Assembly: GCF_003073135.1 (NCBI RefSeq)
Contig: NZ_PGDQ01000023.1
Location: 1-64,000, forward strand
Direction: 5' to 3'
Source of the DNA: Euzebya rosea
GTDB taxonomy: Bacteria; Actinomycetota; Nitriliruptoria; Euzebyales; Euzebyaceae
Length of the DNA stretch: 64,000 nucleotides
The notes under the pieces were generated by a model. The model was not told where the DNA came from and searched no databases. It was given only the letters and a program-made list of their open reading frames with translations. Positions within the stretch are counted from its first letter, which is position 1. The number at the start of each line of letters is the position of its first letter. A program made the translations under genes and the position numbers. Shown here piece after piece: positions 4,367 through 33,814 of the stretch.

Positions 4367-5743
4367 ATGACCAGCGCCGCCGCCCCCGTCCTCCCGCCGT
4401 TGACGACCGCCGAGCGTCGCCCCTCCCGGGTCGACCTCGCGGTGTTCGCGGCGATGCTGCTGCTGGGCCTGCTCGGCATCTTCCTGTCCCACGACCTGCT
4501 CGACGACGACGAGCTCGGCCGCCTGCCGATGTGGGCCGATTACGTCGCGTTCGTGCTGGTGATCGTGCCGGTGCCGGTCCGCCGCATGGCGCCGGCGGCC
4601 GTCTGCCTGTACGTCGGTGTCGGCTTCGCGGTCTTCCGGCTGCTGGAGGTGCCCGAGGGTGCCGTGTCCACCGTGGCGTTGTTCATGGCCATCCATGCCG
4701 CCGGGGCCCACGTGCCCGACCCGACCCGCCGCACCTGGTCGCGGGCCATCGCCCTCGCCGCAGGCTTCCTCGCCCTCTTCGTGCAGCTGGCCGGCGACGT
4801 GGAGCTGGTCGGGTTCGAGACGGTCGTCGGGCTGCTGTTCTCCGTCGGCATCAACGCCGGCTTCTACGTCGCGGCGTGGGTGCTGGGCGACCGGGATCGC
4901 CACCAGCGGATCGACCGGGCCGAGCTGTCGCGACGCGCCGAGCAGCTGGCCACCGAACGCGAGGCCAGGGCGCAGCAGGCGGTCGTGGCCGAGCGGGTCC
5001 GGATCGCCCGCGAGCTGCACGACGTCGTCGCCCACCACGTCAGCGTCATGGGGGTGCAGGCTGCGGCGGCACGGCACGTCATGGCGAAGGACCCCGAGCG
5101 CGCAGCCGAGGCGCTGGGGACCGTGGAGTCCTCGGCCCGGCAGGCGGTGGAGGAGCTGCAGCGCCTGGTCGGCATCCTGCGGGAGGCGCCGTCGGACGGC
5201 ATCGACGCACCCCAGCCGACCCTCGACGGCCTGCCCGCGCTGGTGGACACCCTGGCCGAGGCGGGGCTGCCCGTGGAGCTGCGCGAGATCGGCCGGTCCC
5301 CCGCCGTGCCGGACTCCGTCGGCCTGTCCGCCCATCGGATCGTGCAGGAGGCGCTGACCAACGTGATGCGGCATGCGCCGGGGGCCGAGACGACCGTCGT
5401 GCTGACCCACCTCGCCGGGGTGCTGCAGGTCGAGGTGGTCAACGGGCCGGCCCCGGCCGGTGCCACGCCGGCTGGTCCGGGCGGGGGCCGTGGGCTGCTC
5501 GGGATGCGCGAGCGGGCGGCGATGCTCGGCGGGACGATCGAGGCCGGCCCCCTCCCCCGCGGTGGCTACCGGGTCGCCGCGACCCTCCCCCTCCCCGGCG
5601 GCGCGACAACCGGCGCGATCGGGGCCCACGTCGTCCCTGGGCGAGGTTCGGCACGATCGGGGCCCCATTCTCCGGCGGCCTCTGGGGTGAACGACACGAC
5701 GGACGAGGGTTCGACACGCCTCGACGAGGAGGTGACGCGGTGA
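4367..5743 (+). CDS. Two-component sensor histidine kinase, NarL/LiaS type (HisKA_3)
   Basis: 458 residues from the ATG at 4367. The N-terminal half carries several membrane helices (about 23-41, 57-72, 75-95, 98-113, 125-145 and 150-173). A coiled-coil linker follows (about 180-212), then the HisKA_3 box ARELHDVVAHHVSVMGVQ with phospho-acceptor His218. The ATPase domain has an N-box (EALTNVMRHAP) and G-box (GGGRGLLGMRERAAMLGG). It phosphorylates the response regulator, whose GTG start overlaps its stop. The last 48 residues lie beyond the ATPase fold and include an embedded repeat peptide (residues 417-431), described separately. Confidence 0.92.
   Translation: MTSAAAPVLPPLTTAERRPSRVDLAVFAAMLLLGLLGIFLSHDLLDDDELGRLPMWADYVAFVLVIVPVPVRRMAPAAVCLYVGVGFAVFRLLEVPEGAVSTVALFMAIHAAGAHVPDPTRRTWSRAIALAAGFLALFVQLAGDVELVGFETVVGLLFSVGINAGFYVAAWVLGDRDRHQRIDRAELSRRAEQLATEREARAQQAVVAERVRIARELHDVVAHHVSVMGVQAAAARHVMAKDPERAAEALGTVESSARQAVEELQRLVGILREAPSDGIDAPQPTLDGLPALVDTLAEAGLPVELREIGRSPAVPDSVGLSAHRIVQEALTNVMRHAPGAETTVVLTHLAGVLQVEVVNGPAPAGATPAGPGGGRGLLGMRERAAMLGGTIEAGPLPRGGYRVAATLPLPGGATTGAIGAHVVPGRGSARSGPHSPAASGVNDTTDEGSTRLDEEVTR
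5600..5666 (+). repeat. Short GATCGGGGCC repeat element embedded in frame in the kinase C-terminus
   Basis: Contains GGCGCGATCGGGGCCCACGT, then a second GATCGGGGCCCC arm about 40 bp later, the two arms in direct orientation. Read in the kinase frame it encodes AIGAHVVPGRGSARS. A clearly related element sits inside the anti-sigma gene at 33000-33063 and, read in that gene's frame, encodes AIGASVAPGRGRPRS. The two proteins are otherwise unrelated, which suggests a dispersed element tolerated in disordered protein regions. Confidence 0.75.
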
Positions 5744-31163: not shown

Positions 31164-32185
31164 GACCGTGCCTCCTCTCCCGGGTGGTCGACCAGCTGCA
31201 GGAAGACCTCCTCCAGGCTGGACTGCAGGGGGACGACGGCGCGGATGCGGCCGCCCGCGGCGACGACGGCGGTGACCAGCTCGGGGCCGGCGTCGCGGTC
31301 GTCCAGGCCGACGAGGATCGCCCGGTCGTCGGCATGCACGATCGTGCCGAACCCCTCGACCACCGCGGTCAGGCGGGCGTCGACGCGATCGAGGACGAGG
31401 CGGACCTCGCCGCCGGAGGGCAGGTCGGCGACGGCCCGGTCGGCGAGCACCCGACCGCGGTCCATCACGACGACCCGGTCGCAGACCTGCTCGACCTCGC
31501 CGAGGAGGTGGGAGTTCAGCAGCACCGCAGCGCCCCGGGCACGCAGCCCGAGCACGATGTCGCGGACCTCGCGTCGCCCGACGGGGTCCAGCGCGGAGGT
31601 GGGCTCGTCGAGGATGACCAGGTCGGGCTCGCCGAGCAGGGCTGCCGCGAGGCCGAGCCGTTGGCGCATGCCCTTGGAGTAGCCGCCCACCCGCTCGTCC
31701 CCGCGGCCGGCCAGGCCGACGTGGCGCAGGGCGTCGGCCGCGGCCCGGGCGACCTGTTCGCGTGGGACCCGCACGAGCCCGGCGTGCTGGCGAAGCACCC
31801 GGTCGCCGGTGGCCCACTCGGGCTGGGCGAAGGTCTCGGGCAGGTAGCCGACGCGTCTGCGCGCGGCCGGGTCGGCGGCGTCACGACCGAACAGCTCGGC
31901 GCGTCCGGCGTCGGGCCGGGTCAGTCCGAGCAACATCTTGACGGTCGTGGTCTTGCCGGCCCCGTTGGGGCCCAGCAGCCCCACGGCCTCGCCGGGCCGG
32001 ATCTCCAGGTCCAGCCCGTCGACGGCGGTCCGTCCTCCGAAGGCCTTGACGAGGCCCCGGGCGAGCAGGACCGGGGGCGCCGCGGCCGGGGTCGGGACGG
32101 GGGCGCCGGCCACGGGGGTGTCGCCGGGAGCAGGGGTGTCGCCGGGAGCGGGGGTGTCGCCGGGGGCGGGGGTGGCCCGGCTCAC
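31160..32185 (-). CDS. ABC transporter ATP-binding protein
   Basis: 341 residues from the GTG at 32185, overlapping the anti-sigma stop (GTGA). The first ~40 residues are a low-complexity Pro/Asp/Gly/Thr extension built by an 18-bp repeat (TPAPGD repeated). The ATPase then has Walker A GPNGAGKTTTVK, Q-loop GYLPETFAQPEWATG, signature GYSKGMRQRLGLA, Walker B LVILDEPTSALDP and a DUF4162-like tail. It energises the downstream permease. Its placement in a sigma-factor operon suggests the exporter is made in response to the signal sensed by the anti-sigma factor. Confidence 0.92.
   Translation of the reverse strand: MSRATPAPGDTPAPGDTPAPGDTPVAGAPVPTPAAAPPVLLARGLVKAFGGRTAVDGLDLEIRPGEAVGLLGPNGAGKTTTVKMLLGLTRPDAGRAELFGRDAADPAARRRVGYLPETFAQPEWATGDRVLRQHAGLVRVPREQVARAAADALRHVGLAGRGDERVGGYSKGMRQRLGLAAALLGEPDLVILDEPTSALDPVGRREVRDIVLGLRARGAAVLLNSHLLGEVEQVCDRVVVMDRGRVLADRAVADLPSGGEVRLVLDRVDARLTAVVEGFGTIVHADDRAILVGLDDRDAGPELVTAVVAAGGRIRAVVPLQSSLEEVFLQLVDHPGEEARS
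32115..32168. repeat. 18-bp tandem repeat, three copies, in the ATPase N-terminus
   Basis: GGGGTGTCGCCGGGAGCA and two near-copies (third with one extra change) start at 32115, 32133 and 32151. On the coding strand they give TPAPGD three times. The frame is preserved, so length variation among strains would change only a flexible N-terminal tail. Confidence 0.85.
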
Positions 32186-33330
32186 GTGCGCTCGGCCAGG
32201 TCCTGCAGCTCGTCCAGCGGACGGGTTCCGGCGATGCCGTGGATCAGGCCGTCGGCCTGCCACACGATGGCCGCGCCCAGGCCGCTGTCGTCACCGAAGG
32301 CCAGGCCGTCGTTGCCGGCCACGGTGAGTGTTTCCCAGCCGACGCCGCCGGCGGGCACGGGCAGCGGGAGGGTGTGCTGCCAGTCCTCGATGCCGGCCAG
32401 CTGGGTGCGCAGCGACTCGGGCAGCTCCTCGCGGGACAGCAGGAAGTCACGGATGTCGGCGAGCGGGGCGCCCTGGGCGGTGGCCTCGATGGCACCGGCC
32501 GTCCCGAGCACGAGGTCGGGCATGCCGCTGGCGGCGGTCAGCACGGTGGCGGCACCGCCGGGCACGGTGACGTCGAGCACGGCGCCGTCCAGGTCGGCTG
32601 GCACCCCGTTGTCGGCGGTGGCGAGGAGGGTCACGACGGCGTGGGAGGGGGCGATGGCGAGGTAGGTGATCGCGGCGTCCGGGCCGGCAGCCCCCTCGGG
32701 CAGGTCGGGCGCAGCCACACCGGCGATCGCCAGCGCGGCGGCGGGGTCGGCCACCTCGGTCGGCCCGTCGTGCAGGGCGCCGTCGCCGGTCAGCTCGACG
32801 GTGGCGATGTCGTCGAGGGCGTCGAGGTCCTGCAGCGCGGCCACGTCGACCTCGATGACCTGGACCCGCTCGCTGCGGAAGGTGTCGAGGAACTGGGCGA
32901 GGGCGCCGGAGCCGAGGGGCGTGACGGCCAGGGCGACCGTCAGCAGCCCACCCGCGACGGCCAGGACCACCCGACGGGGCCGCGTGCGCCCCGATGGACG
33001 GCGCGATGACGGGCGCGATCGGGGCCTGCCTCGTCCCGGCGCGACGGAGGCCCCGATCGCGTCGACCGGGGTGCGGGACGGCCGACCGGGCGCGGGCTCG
33101 GTGGCCGGGTCGGTGATCACGTCGACGGCCGCGGCGGCGGGTGCGTCGTCGAGGACGGTGAGCAGGCGGCGGACGGTGCCGGCGTCGTCGGCGATGGTGA
33201 GGATCGTGTCCCGGCACCCCTCGCAGCCGTCGAGGTGGGCCTCGACCGTCGCGTCGGGGTGGTCCAGGTGGGTGCGCAGGCGGCCGGAACCGGGGCACGC
33301 CAGCAGGTCGGTGGGGGTGGGCTCAGTCAT
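32182..33330 (-). CDS. Anti-sigma factor with zinc-finger-like N-terminus
   Basis: 382 residues from the ATG at 33330. The N-terminal AHLDGCEGCR gives His32, Cys36 and Cys39, the HxxxCxxC zinc-binding pattern of anti-sigma (ZAS-like) domains. A Pro/Arg-rich linker that includes an embedded repeat peptide (91-105) leads to one membrane helix (VVLAVAGGLLTVALAV, ~121-138). Residues ~140-382 form an extracytoplasmic sensor domain with no recognised family. It should hold the adjacent ECF sigma at the membrane until a signal arrives. The reading frame overlaps the sigma gene by 8 bp. Confidence 0.85.
   Translation of the reverse strand: MTEPTPTDLLACPGSGRLRTHLDHPDATVEAHLDGCEGCRDTILTIADDAGTVRRLLTVLDDAPAAAAVDVITDPATEPAPGRPSRTPVDAIGASVAPGRGRPRSRPSSRRPSGRTRPRRVVLAVAGGLLTVALAVTPLGSGALAQFLDTFRSERVQVIEVDVAALQDLDALDDIATVELTGDGALHDGPTEVADPAAALAIAGVAAPDLPEGAAGPDAAITYLAIAPSHAVVTLLATADNGVPADLDGAVLDVTVPGGAATVLTAASGMPDLVLGTAGAIEATAQGAPLADIRDFLLSREELPESLRTQLAGIEDWQHTLPLPVPAGGVGWETLTVAGNDGLAFGDDSGLGAAIVWQADGLIHGIAGTRPLDELQDLAERT
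33000..33063 (-). repeat. Palindromic element embedded in frame in the anti-sigma gene
   Basis: A 13-bp perfect inverted repeat, GCGATCGGGGCCT (33015-33027) and AGGCCCCGATCGC (33048-33060), encloses a 20-nt loop. Read on the coding (minus) strand it encodes AIGASVAPGRGRPRS between the zinc-finger and membrane segments. It is related to the element in the kinase gene at 5600-5666: the same coding-strand core GCGATCGGGGCC, then CGTCG, then CGAGG. It lies in the linker and keeps frame. Confidence 0.78.
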
Positions 33331-33814
33331 CGTCGGTCTCCCAGTCACGTCGGAACGCCCGCTCGCCCCTGGCGAGCAGCACCCCGACCGATCCGGCTGC
33401 CACGCCCAGCGCGGCGGCGATCTCGGCGTAGCTGTGGCCGGAATGGCGCAGCAGCAGCGCGACGGCCTGCCGTTCGGGCAGCCCGGCCAGCACGGCGCGG
33501 ACACGACGTCGTTCGTCGTCACGGGTGACGACGTCCTCCGGCGTCTCCGGCCGGTCGGGCCCGACAGCCTGTCCGTGCGCGGCCACCCGGGCGTCGTGCC
33601 GCTTGGCCGCACGCACCCGGTTGAGGGCCAGGTTGATCGTCACCCGGTTGAGCCAGGCAGCGACCTCGTCCTCGGGCCGACCCTCCACCGACGATCCGTC
33701 CAGGCGGGCCAGCGCATCGGCGGCCACCTCCTCGGCGGTCGCGCGCTGGTCGACCACCCTGGCAGCCAGGGCGGTCAACCGTGGGTAGTGGTCGGCGAAG
33801 GGCGAGTCCGTCAC
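33323..33814 (-). CDS. ECF-family RNA polymerase sigma factor (SigE-like group)
   Basis: 163 residues from a GTG start. Region 2: FADHYPRLTALAARVVDQRATAEEVAADALARL and AWLNRVTINLALNRVRAAKR. Region 4: VLAGLPERQAVALLLRHSGHSYAEIAAALGVAAGSVGVLLARGERAF, with the helix-turn-helix YAEIAAALGVAAGSV. It replaces the housekeeping sigma to transcribe a stress regulon, here presumably including its own operon with the anti-sigma factor and ABC exporter. No conserved GGAAC-type promoter could be fixed in the 58 bp upstream. Confidence 0.92.
   Translation of the reverse strand: MTDSPFADHYPRLTALAARVVDQRATAEEVAADALARLDGSSVEGRPEDEVAAWLNRVTINLALNRVRAAKRHDARVAAHGQAVGPDRPETPEDVVTRDDERRRVRAVLAGLPERQAVALLLRHSGHSYAEIAAALGVAAGSVGVLLARGERAFRRDWETDDD

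Follow-up and report, generated by a model that had tools for sequence, protein, structure and literature searches.

Why do the C-terminal tail of a sensor histidine kinase and the linker of an anti-sigma-like protein of Euzebya rosea carry nearly the same peptide? Both genes lie in the window analysed here, that is, the whole 64,000-nucleotide stretch at positions 1 to 64,000 of contig NZ_PGDQ01000023.1. An earlier note on this DNA had described the pattern AIGA-V-PGRG--RS as common to both proteins (11 of 15 residues identical), and had attributed it to related DNA belonging to a dispersed palindromic element. Both peptides (TTGAIGAHVVPGRGSARSGP in the kinase and VDAIGASVAPGRGRPRSRP in the anti-sigma-like protein) were found as described, and the segments encoding them are two copies of one 52-nt imperfect palindrome (Table 1). 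The kinase copy is read in sense phase 0 and covers residues about 416-433, beyond the HATPase_c domain, which stops at residue 410 in Pfam. The second copy sits in the linker of the anti-sigma-like protein (residues about 90-107, minus-strand reading), where its inverted arms (33014-33033 and 33042-33061) are 20 nt long and 90% complementary. The outer 14 nt of these arms pair perfectly, so that perfect arms exist as noted earlier, slightly longer than the 13 bp given then. The kinase copy is the weaker palindrome and has a right arm that repeats the left one in direct orientation (16-17 nt, 38 bp downstream); the same 38-bp step recurs in the E. pacifica arrays L289 and L305. The two proteins resemble each other because both read the element in phase 0 from opposite strands of a near-palindrome. 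The second host is named anti-sigma-like from its context (it overlaps an upstream sigma-factor-like gene at 33323-33814 on the minus strand) and from sequence reading, as a Pfam search of the protein returned no match. A covariance model built from 27 copies recovered exactly two true copies in the window, the next match (17 bits) being noise. With one mismatch allowed the window holds 15 matches versus 9.4 expected, and thus the window alone is insufficient to reveal a repeat family.

Table 1. Positions of the element copies, their host genes and the DUF559-gene loci (window positions unless a locus is given).
Feature	Position	Strand	Remarks
Host gene 1, sensor histidine kinase (HisKA_3, HATPase_c)	4367-5743	+	Response-regulator-like ORF follows
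Element copy 1, 52 nt	5612..5663	+	Covariance-model match 65.8 bits, E 5.6e-13 in window
Right arm of copy 1, running on as second left-arm-like motif GGCACGATCGGGGCC	5650..5664	+	Direct repeat
Host gene 2, anti-sigma-like (CxxC-type N-terminus, linker, membrane segment)	32182-33330	-	
Element copy 2, 52 nt, near-symmetric	33012..33063	.	Covariance-model matches 66.0 (+) and 62.9 (-) bits
DUF559-gene locus, E. rosea	L080:3409-4708		
DUF559-gene locus, G001	L265:2458-3705		Gene orientation reversed between arrays
DUF559-gene locus, E. pacifica	L298:2617-6197		Gene split by IS21-type insertion

The search for further copies that the earlier note had proposed was successful. In the E. rosea genome the 12-mer GCGATCGGGGCC occurs exactly 52 times and its reversed control not once, which argues against chance, and several pairs and triplets of this 12-mer are exactly 72 bp apart. 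The copies align essentially without gaps across 52 columns and are constructed from conserved arms (GGCRCGATCGGGGCC ... GGCRCGATC, or the inverse) that flank a variable inner hairpin, formed by the middle 22 nt. The left arm GGCRCGATCGGGGCC is near-invariant. The right end always contains CGATC and takes one of two forms, either the reverse complement of the left arm, as in symmetric copies such as the anti-sigma one, or the direct repeat GGCRCGATC, as in the kinase copy. Either form can close the outer stem because CGATCG is itself palindromic.

The inner hairpin is maintained by compensatory changes. Among 173 distinct copies from three genomes, columns 20-33 are TA in 127 cases and CG in 33, columns 22-31 are GC in 133 and AT in 26, and columns 18-35 co-vary as well (CG or AT). 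Pairing in register was found in 68% of the cells, versus 36-46% when the register was shifted. A covariation test on 27 copies was not significant because those copies are too alike. The typical core reads GTCGTCC-AT-GGACGAtG in E. rosea, CTCGCC-TGAC-GGCGAGG in the congener G001 and ACCCGCACATGCGCGGGT in the congener G002, and ACCCACC-CATA-CGTGGGT is also present as a typical core in E. pacifica. Five element loci gave no gathering-level match in Rfam.

Copies were located by pattern and covariance model, with full scoring of the best 96-150 candidates per genome search, and all counts are lower bounds. E. rosea carries at least 52 full copies by the covariance model (36 intergenic, 14 in genes, and 2 at gene edges), E. 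pacifica (G003) at least 79 (58, 15, and 6, respectively), and G001 at least 60 rows, or 58 without two weak rows (54 intergenic, 3 in genes, of which 2 are credible, and 3 at edges); six copies were sampled from G002. L110 and the weak rows of L271, L304, and L268:521 were taken as chance matches and set aside. The earlier picture of an element inside proteins thus holds for real in-frame copies of what is mainly an intergenic repeat. Of the 61 genomes searched, all four Euzebya members carry the element and none of the 57 other relatives does, so that it is genus-restricted among the relatives searched. The genes around the copies were called by a simple codon-usage method on the fetched flanks. 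By these calls the in-gene share is 14/52 in E. rosea, 15/79 in E. pacifica, and 2/57 in G001, versus a coding fraction of about 0.88; genes are strongly avoided. Intergenic copies prefer gene 3' ends and convergent pairs (35 convergent, 54 unidirectional, and 13 divergent sites; convergent versus divergent gaps, Fisher p 7e-12), which is the location typical of the GTAG/CGTC REPs considered below. Moreover, for 48 of the 52 E. rosea copies, a flank matches an E. pacifica locus in which the element is also present. None of the element matches listed lies on the 571,580-bp plasmid of E. pacifica (NZ_CP031166.1), and a plasmid search with the element consensus gave no relevant match.

Inside genes, 14 copies are in frame across 11 genes of E. 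rosea, which bears out the proposal of a dispersed palindrome that enters unrelated genes and keeps their frame. The hosts include two histidine kinases, the anti-sigma-like gene, LigD, MenD, a membrane protein, an M23-like protein, an ABC ATPase, a FecCD-like permease, a PriA-like helicase (with two inverted copies), and a flavin amine oxidase (with two tandem copies 72 bp apart). The copies in the M23-like, ABC ATPase, and FecCD-like genes lie near the predicted N-terminus, and the true start could be downstream of the copy. In the kinase, LigD (at residue 345 of 872), and MenD, the copy falls outside or between Pfam domains, in MenD within a poorly aligned linker of the solved homologue. 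AlphaFold, run twice on two-sequence alignments, gave mean pLDDT values of 39.6 and 31.5, too low for use. Host phases 0, 1, and 2 are used 5, 6, and 3 times in E. rosea. As three host frames are used, the element is not a peptide module, and the statement that it encodes nearly the same peptide applies to the two window genes and not in general. Since 52 is not a multiple of 3, in-frame survival needs additional indels.

Eight host genes were compared between species. In all eight, the element occupies the same site in E. pacifica, and in G001 none of them contains it; in G002 it is absent from every host orthologue found (the anti-sigma-like, amine oxidase, and membrane protein genes yielded none). 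The covariance model likewise found no match in the tested orthologous loci of G001 and G002. The host reading frames are intact with and without the element; element-free orthologues of the kind that the earlier note had suggested looking for thus exist in these more distant congeners. Differences are also seen between the close species, as the intergenic site L087/L320 is filled in E. rosea and empty in E. pacifica, one site in L307 is filled in E. pacifica and empty in E. rosea, and in L309 all that E. rosea retains is a decayed right half. The difference between occupied and empty sites amounts to at least 78 bp; the few such pairs have ragged edges and showed neither a clean target-site duplication nor an insertion of exactly 52 bp.

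At shared sites the arms are 89-94% identical and the cores 64-70%. Some cores at shared sites are wholly different and still pair, with the arms kept, in-gene cases included. The amine oxidase (L107:3304-3427 and L231:1460-1583) contains the element as a tandem 24-residue repeat, in which the two copies match within each genome and the cores differ between genomes; the E. pacifica counterpart of DRADHRPGATQAPIAP is DRAGTHDGVGSAPIAP. Core replacement of this kind is also seen in the M23-like gene, which has a single copy. Either conversion between copies or the insertion of new copies into old ones would explain this. The anti-sigma copy, on the other hand, is identical to its E. pacifica counterpart in 52 of 52 nt, with diverged flanks.

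The element is thus dispersed, prefers gene 3' ends, sits in frame in unrelated hosts, and is absent from the same genes of distant congeners. Very probably it is a non-autonomous, genus-restricted, REP-like element that spread in a transposition-like manner and whose in-gene copies are tolerated, fixed insertions. It would settle mostly just downstream of genes and would at times land in genes too, where in-frame insertions in linkers, tails, or surface loops may be tolerated, presumably because stop codons are rare in every frame of this GC-rich palindrome, and may then be fixed as additional residues. Both copies in the window would be such fixed insertions, probably near-neutral, which would predate the split of E. 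rosea and E. pacifica and be younger than, or lost since, the split from the other congeners. The complete identity of the anti-sigma copy, together with in-gene arms that are better conserved than the cores, hints at more than neutrality.

In an alternative reading, the element is maintained by selection because the DNA or RNA itself serves as a site: a nucleoid or topology protein might bind it, for example, or it might act as a hairpin at mRNA 3' ends. The in-gene copies would then be functional and only incidentally translated. We consider this possible but unlikely. It would account for the preference for gene 3' ends, for the difference between arms and cores at shared sites, and for hairpins that are retained in genes (mean folding energy of -32.6 for in-gene copies and -27.1 for intergenic ones). 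It would also fit the spacing of the arrays in E. rosea, G001, and E. pacifica (for example L092, L276, and L298), in which same-strand neighbours are mostly 72-74, 81-86, 92-95, or 102 bp apart, with spacer sequences that differ from locus to locus. Steps of about 10.5 bp gave a permutation p of 0.004 on distinct values and of 1e-4 without the 72s, for a small and not fully independent sample in which the arrays had been collapsed manually, one spacer is common to two G001 arrays, and the clustering had been noticed before the test. The values of 72, about 83, about 93, and 102 bp are close to helical-turn steps, which we regard as a lead. Against a selected site speak the restriction to one genus, the species-specific cores, and the presence/absence differences between close species; furthermore, concerted spread or gene conversion would conserve the arms too.

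How a transposition-like spread would be brought about was considered next to the known classes of mobile enzymes. The Y1_Tnp domain (PF01797; RAYT/IS200 type) was found in none of the four Euzebya genomes at E 0.1, although the positive controls were found. The inverted arms, the short middle, the dispersal, and the often symmetric copies would suit a MITE, that is, a truncated insertion sequence whose terminal inverted repeats are acted on by a DDE-type transposase. Such an origin is nevertheless improbable, as the element is shorter than the MITE range of 70-300 bp (PMC3733652), many right arms are direct rather than inverted repeats, the few ragged-edged occupied/empty pairs show no target-site duplication, and no insertion sequence with GGCGCGATCGGGGCC-type ends was noticed in passing. 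There is only a slight chance that the enzyme is a nuclease of the DUF559 kind (Vsr-like, PD-(D/E)XK fold) instead of a RAYT. In three of the species (Table 1), inverted arrays of the element enclose a gene that encodes about 295 residues ending in a DUF559 domain, with trpD on one side and an AsnC/Lrp-like gene on the other; this layout resembles a REPtron with a different enzyme class. The arrangement was seen at one locus, where two arrays may just happen to have a gene between them.

It is very doubtful that the copies are multiplied intrinsic transcription terminators. The strong hairpins, placed close to gene 3' ends and in convergent gaps, would be expected of terminators, but TTTT follows within 12 nt at only 1 of 382 element ends, for which reason a T-tailed terminator was rejected, and some copies lie midway through long genes, LigD and MenD among them. 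Finally, a vertically conserved peptide motif or a chance similarity, for which the 11 matching residues of the two window proteins could be cited, is refuted by dozens of DNA copies, most of them untranslated, by the use of three reading frames, and by orthologues in G001 and, where found, G002 that are free of the element.

The transposition-like REP-type reading can be placed among several known systems. The palindromic elements of Rickettsia (RPE) and Wolbachia (WPE) are dispersed between genes and, in frame, within unrelated genes, and RPE orthologues hold the insert at the same place (PMC2229807, PMC3767692, PMC10969869). The Euzebya element behaves likewise, being palindromic, in frame within unrelated genes, and at the same site in orthologues. 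RPEs, however, are 105-146 bp long, belong to alphaproteobacteria, and are described as encoding a conserved peptide (PMC2229807), whereas the Euzebya element is 52 nt long, actinobacterial, read in three frames, and mostly intergenic. Membership by sequence was rejected on its length and on the single conserved peptide that it lacks. The likeness to Rickettsia elements drawn in the earlier note is thus one of behaviour, and intragenic palindromes are not exclusive to Rickettsia, as GTAG/CGTC REPs occur in several phyla (PMC3733652).

In these GTAG/CGTC REPs, a hairpin of 20-40 bp carries a GTAG or CGTC tag that stays unpaired at one end (Di Nocera et al. 2013, PMC3733652). They form species-specific families and clusters and are found at gene 3' ends between convergent or unidirectional genes, with some intragenic copies; the CGTC REPs have no dedicated transposase (PMC3733652). 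The Euzebya hairpin is similarly located downstream of genes, clustered, partly intragenic, and without a known transposase. In contrast, conservation in the Euzebya hairpin resides in the outer arms (CGATCGGGGCC/CGATC), which are paired, and CGTC is confined to one subfamily, where it is part of the paired core; in the absence of a constant unpaired tag, membership was rejected. REPINs combine a pair of REP sequences, separated by a longer spacer, and require a RAYT (PMC3116915, PMC2817692). They share with the Euzebya element the two conserved arms around a variable hairpin spacer, the fixed-step tandem arrays (including 71-72 bp), and the compensatory variation of the hairpin (pairs 18-35, 20-33, and 22-31), and differ from it in the Y1 transposase, which the four Euzebya genomes were found to lack.

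In the open-access literature (subscription papers being outside the scope) no report was found for Euzebya or of in-frame palindromes in the Nitriliruptoria, nor of RAYT-linked REPs together with Actinobacteria, in agreement with the earlier note, which knew of none for this lineage. We call the element a new family of REP-type palindrome, while in-frame palindromes as such are already known. It extends in-frame, protein-decorating palindromes to the Nitriliruptoria (Actinomycetota), and orthologous sites with and without the element make the fate of small mobile hairpins inside proteins traceable. At a fixed in-gene site the core and the encoded peptide can be replaced while the arms and the frame persist. 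The absence of a Y1 transposase re-opens the question of how such repeats move.

Two minor observations were made along the way. In the E. pacifica orthologue of the kinase (L111), the tail that follows the element (window 5666-5743) is expanded into HTNN/HANN-type repeats, which indicates a generally unconstrained tail. A further repeat, about 60 bp long and unrelated to the element (GCATCGACGGTCTCGGATCGACTGTTTCCCCAGCTC...), was found in the flank of the E. pacifica locus L303 (query positions 2401-2460) and at about nine places in E. rosea.
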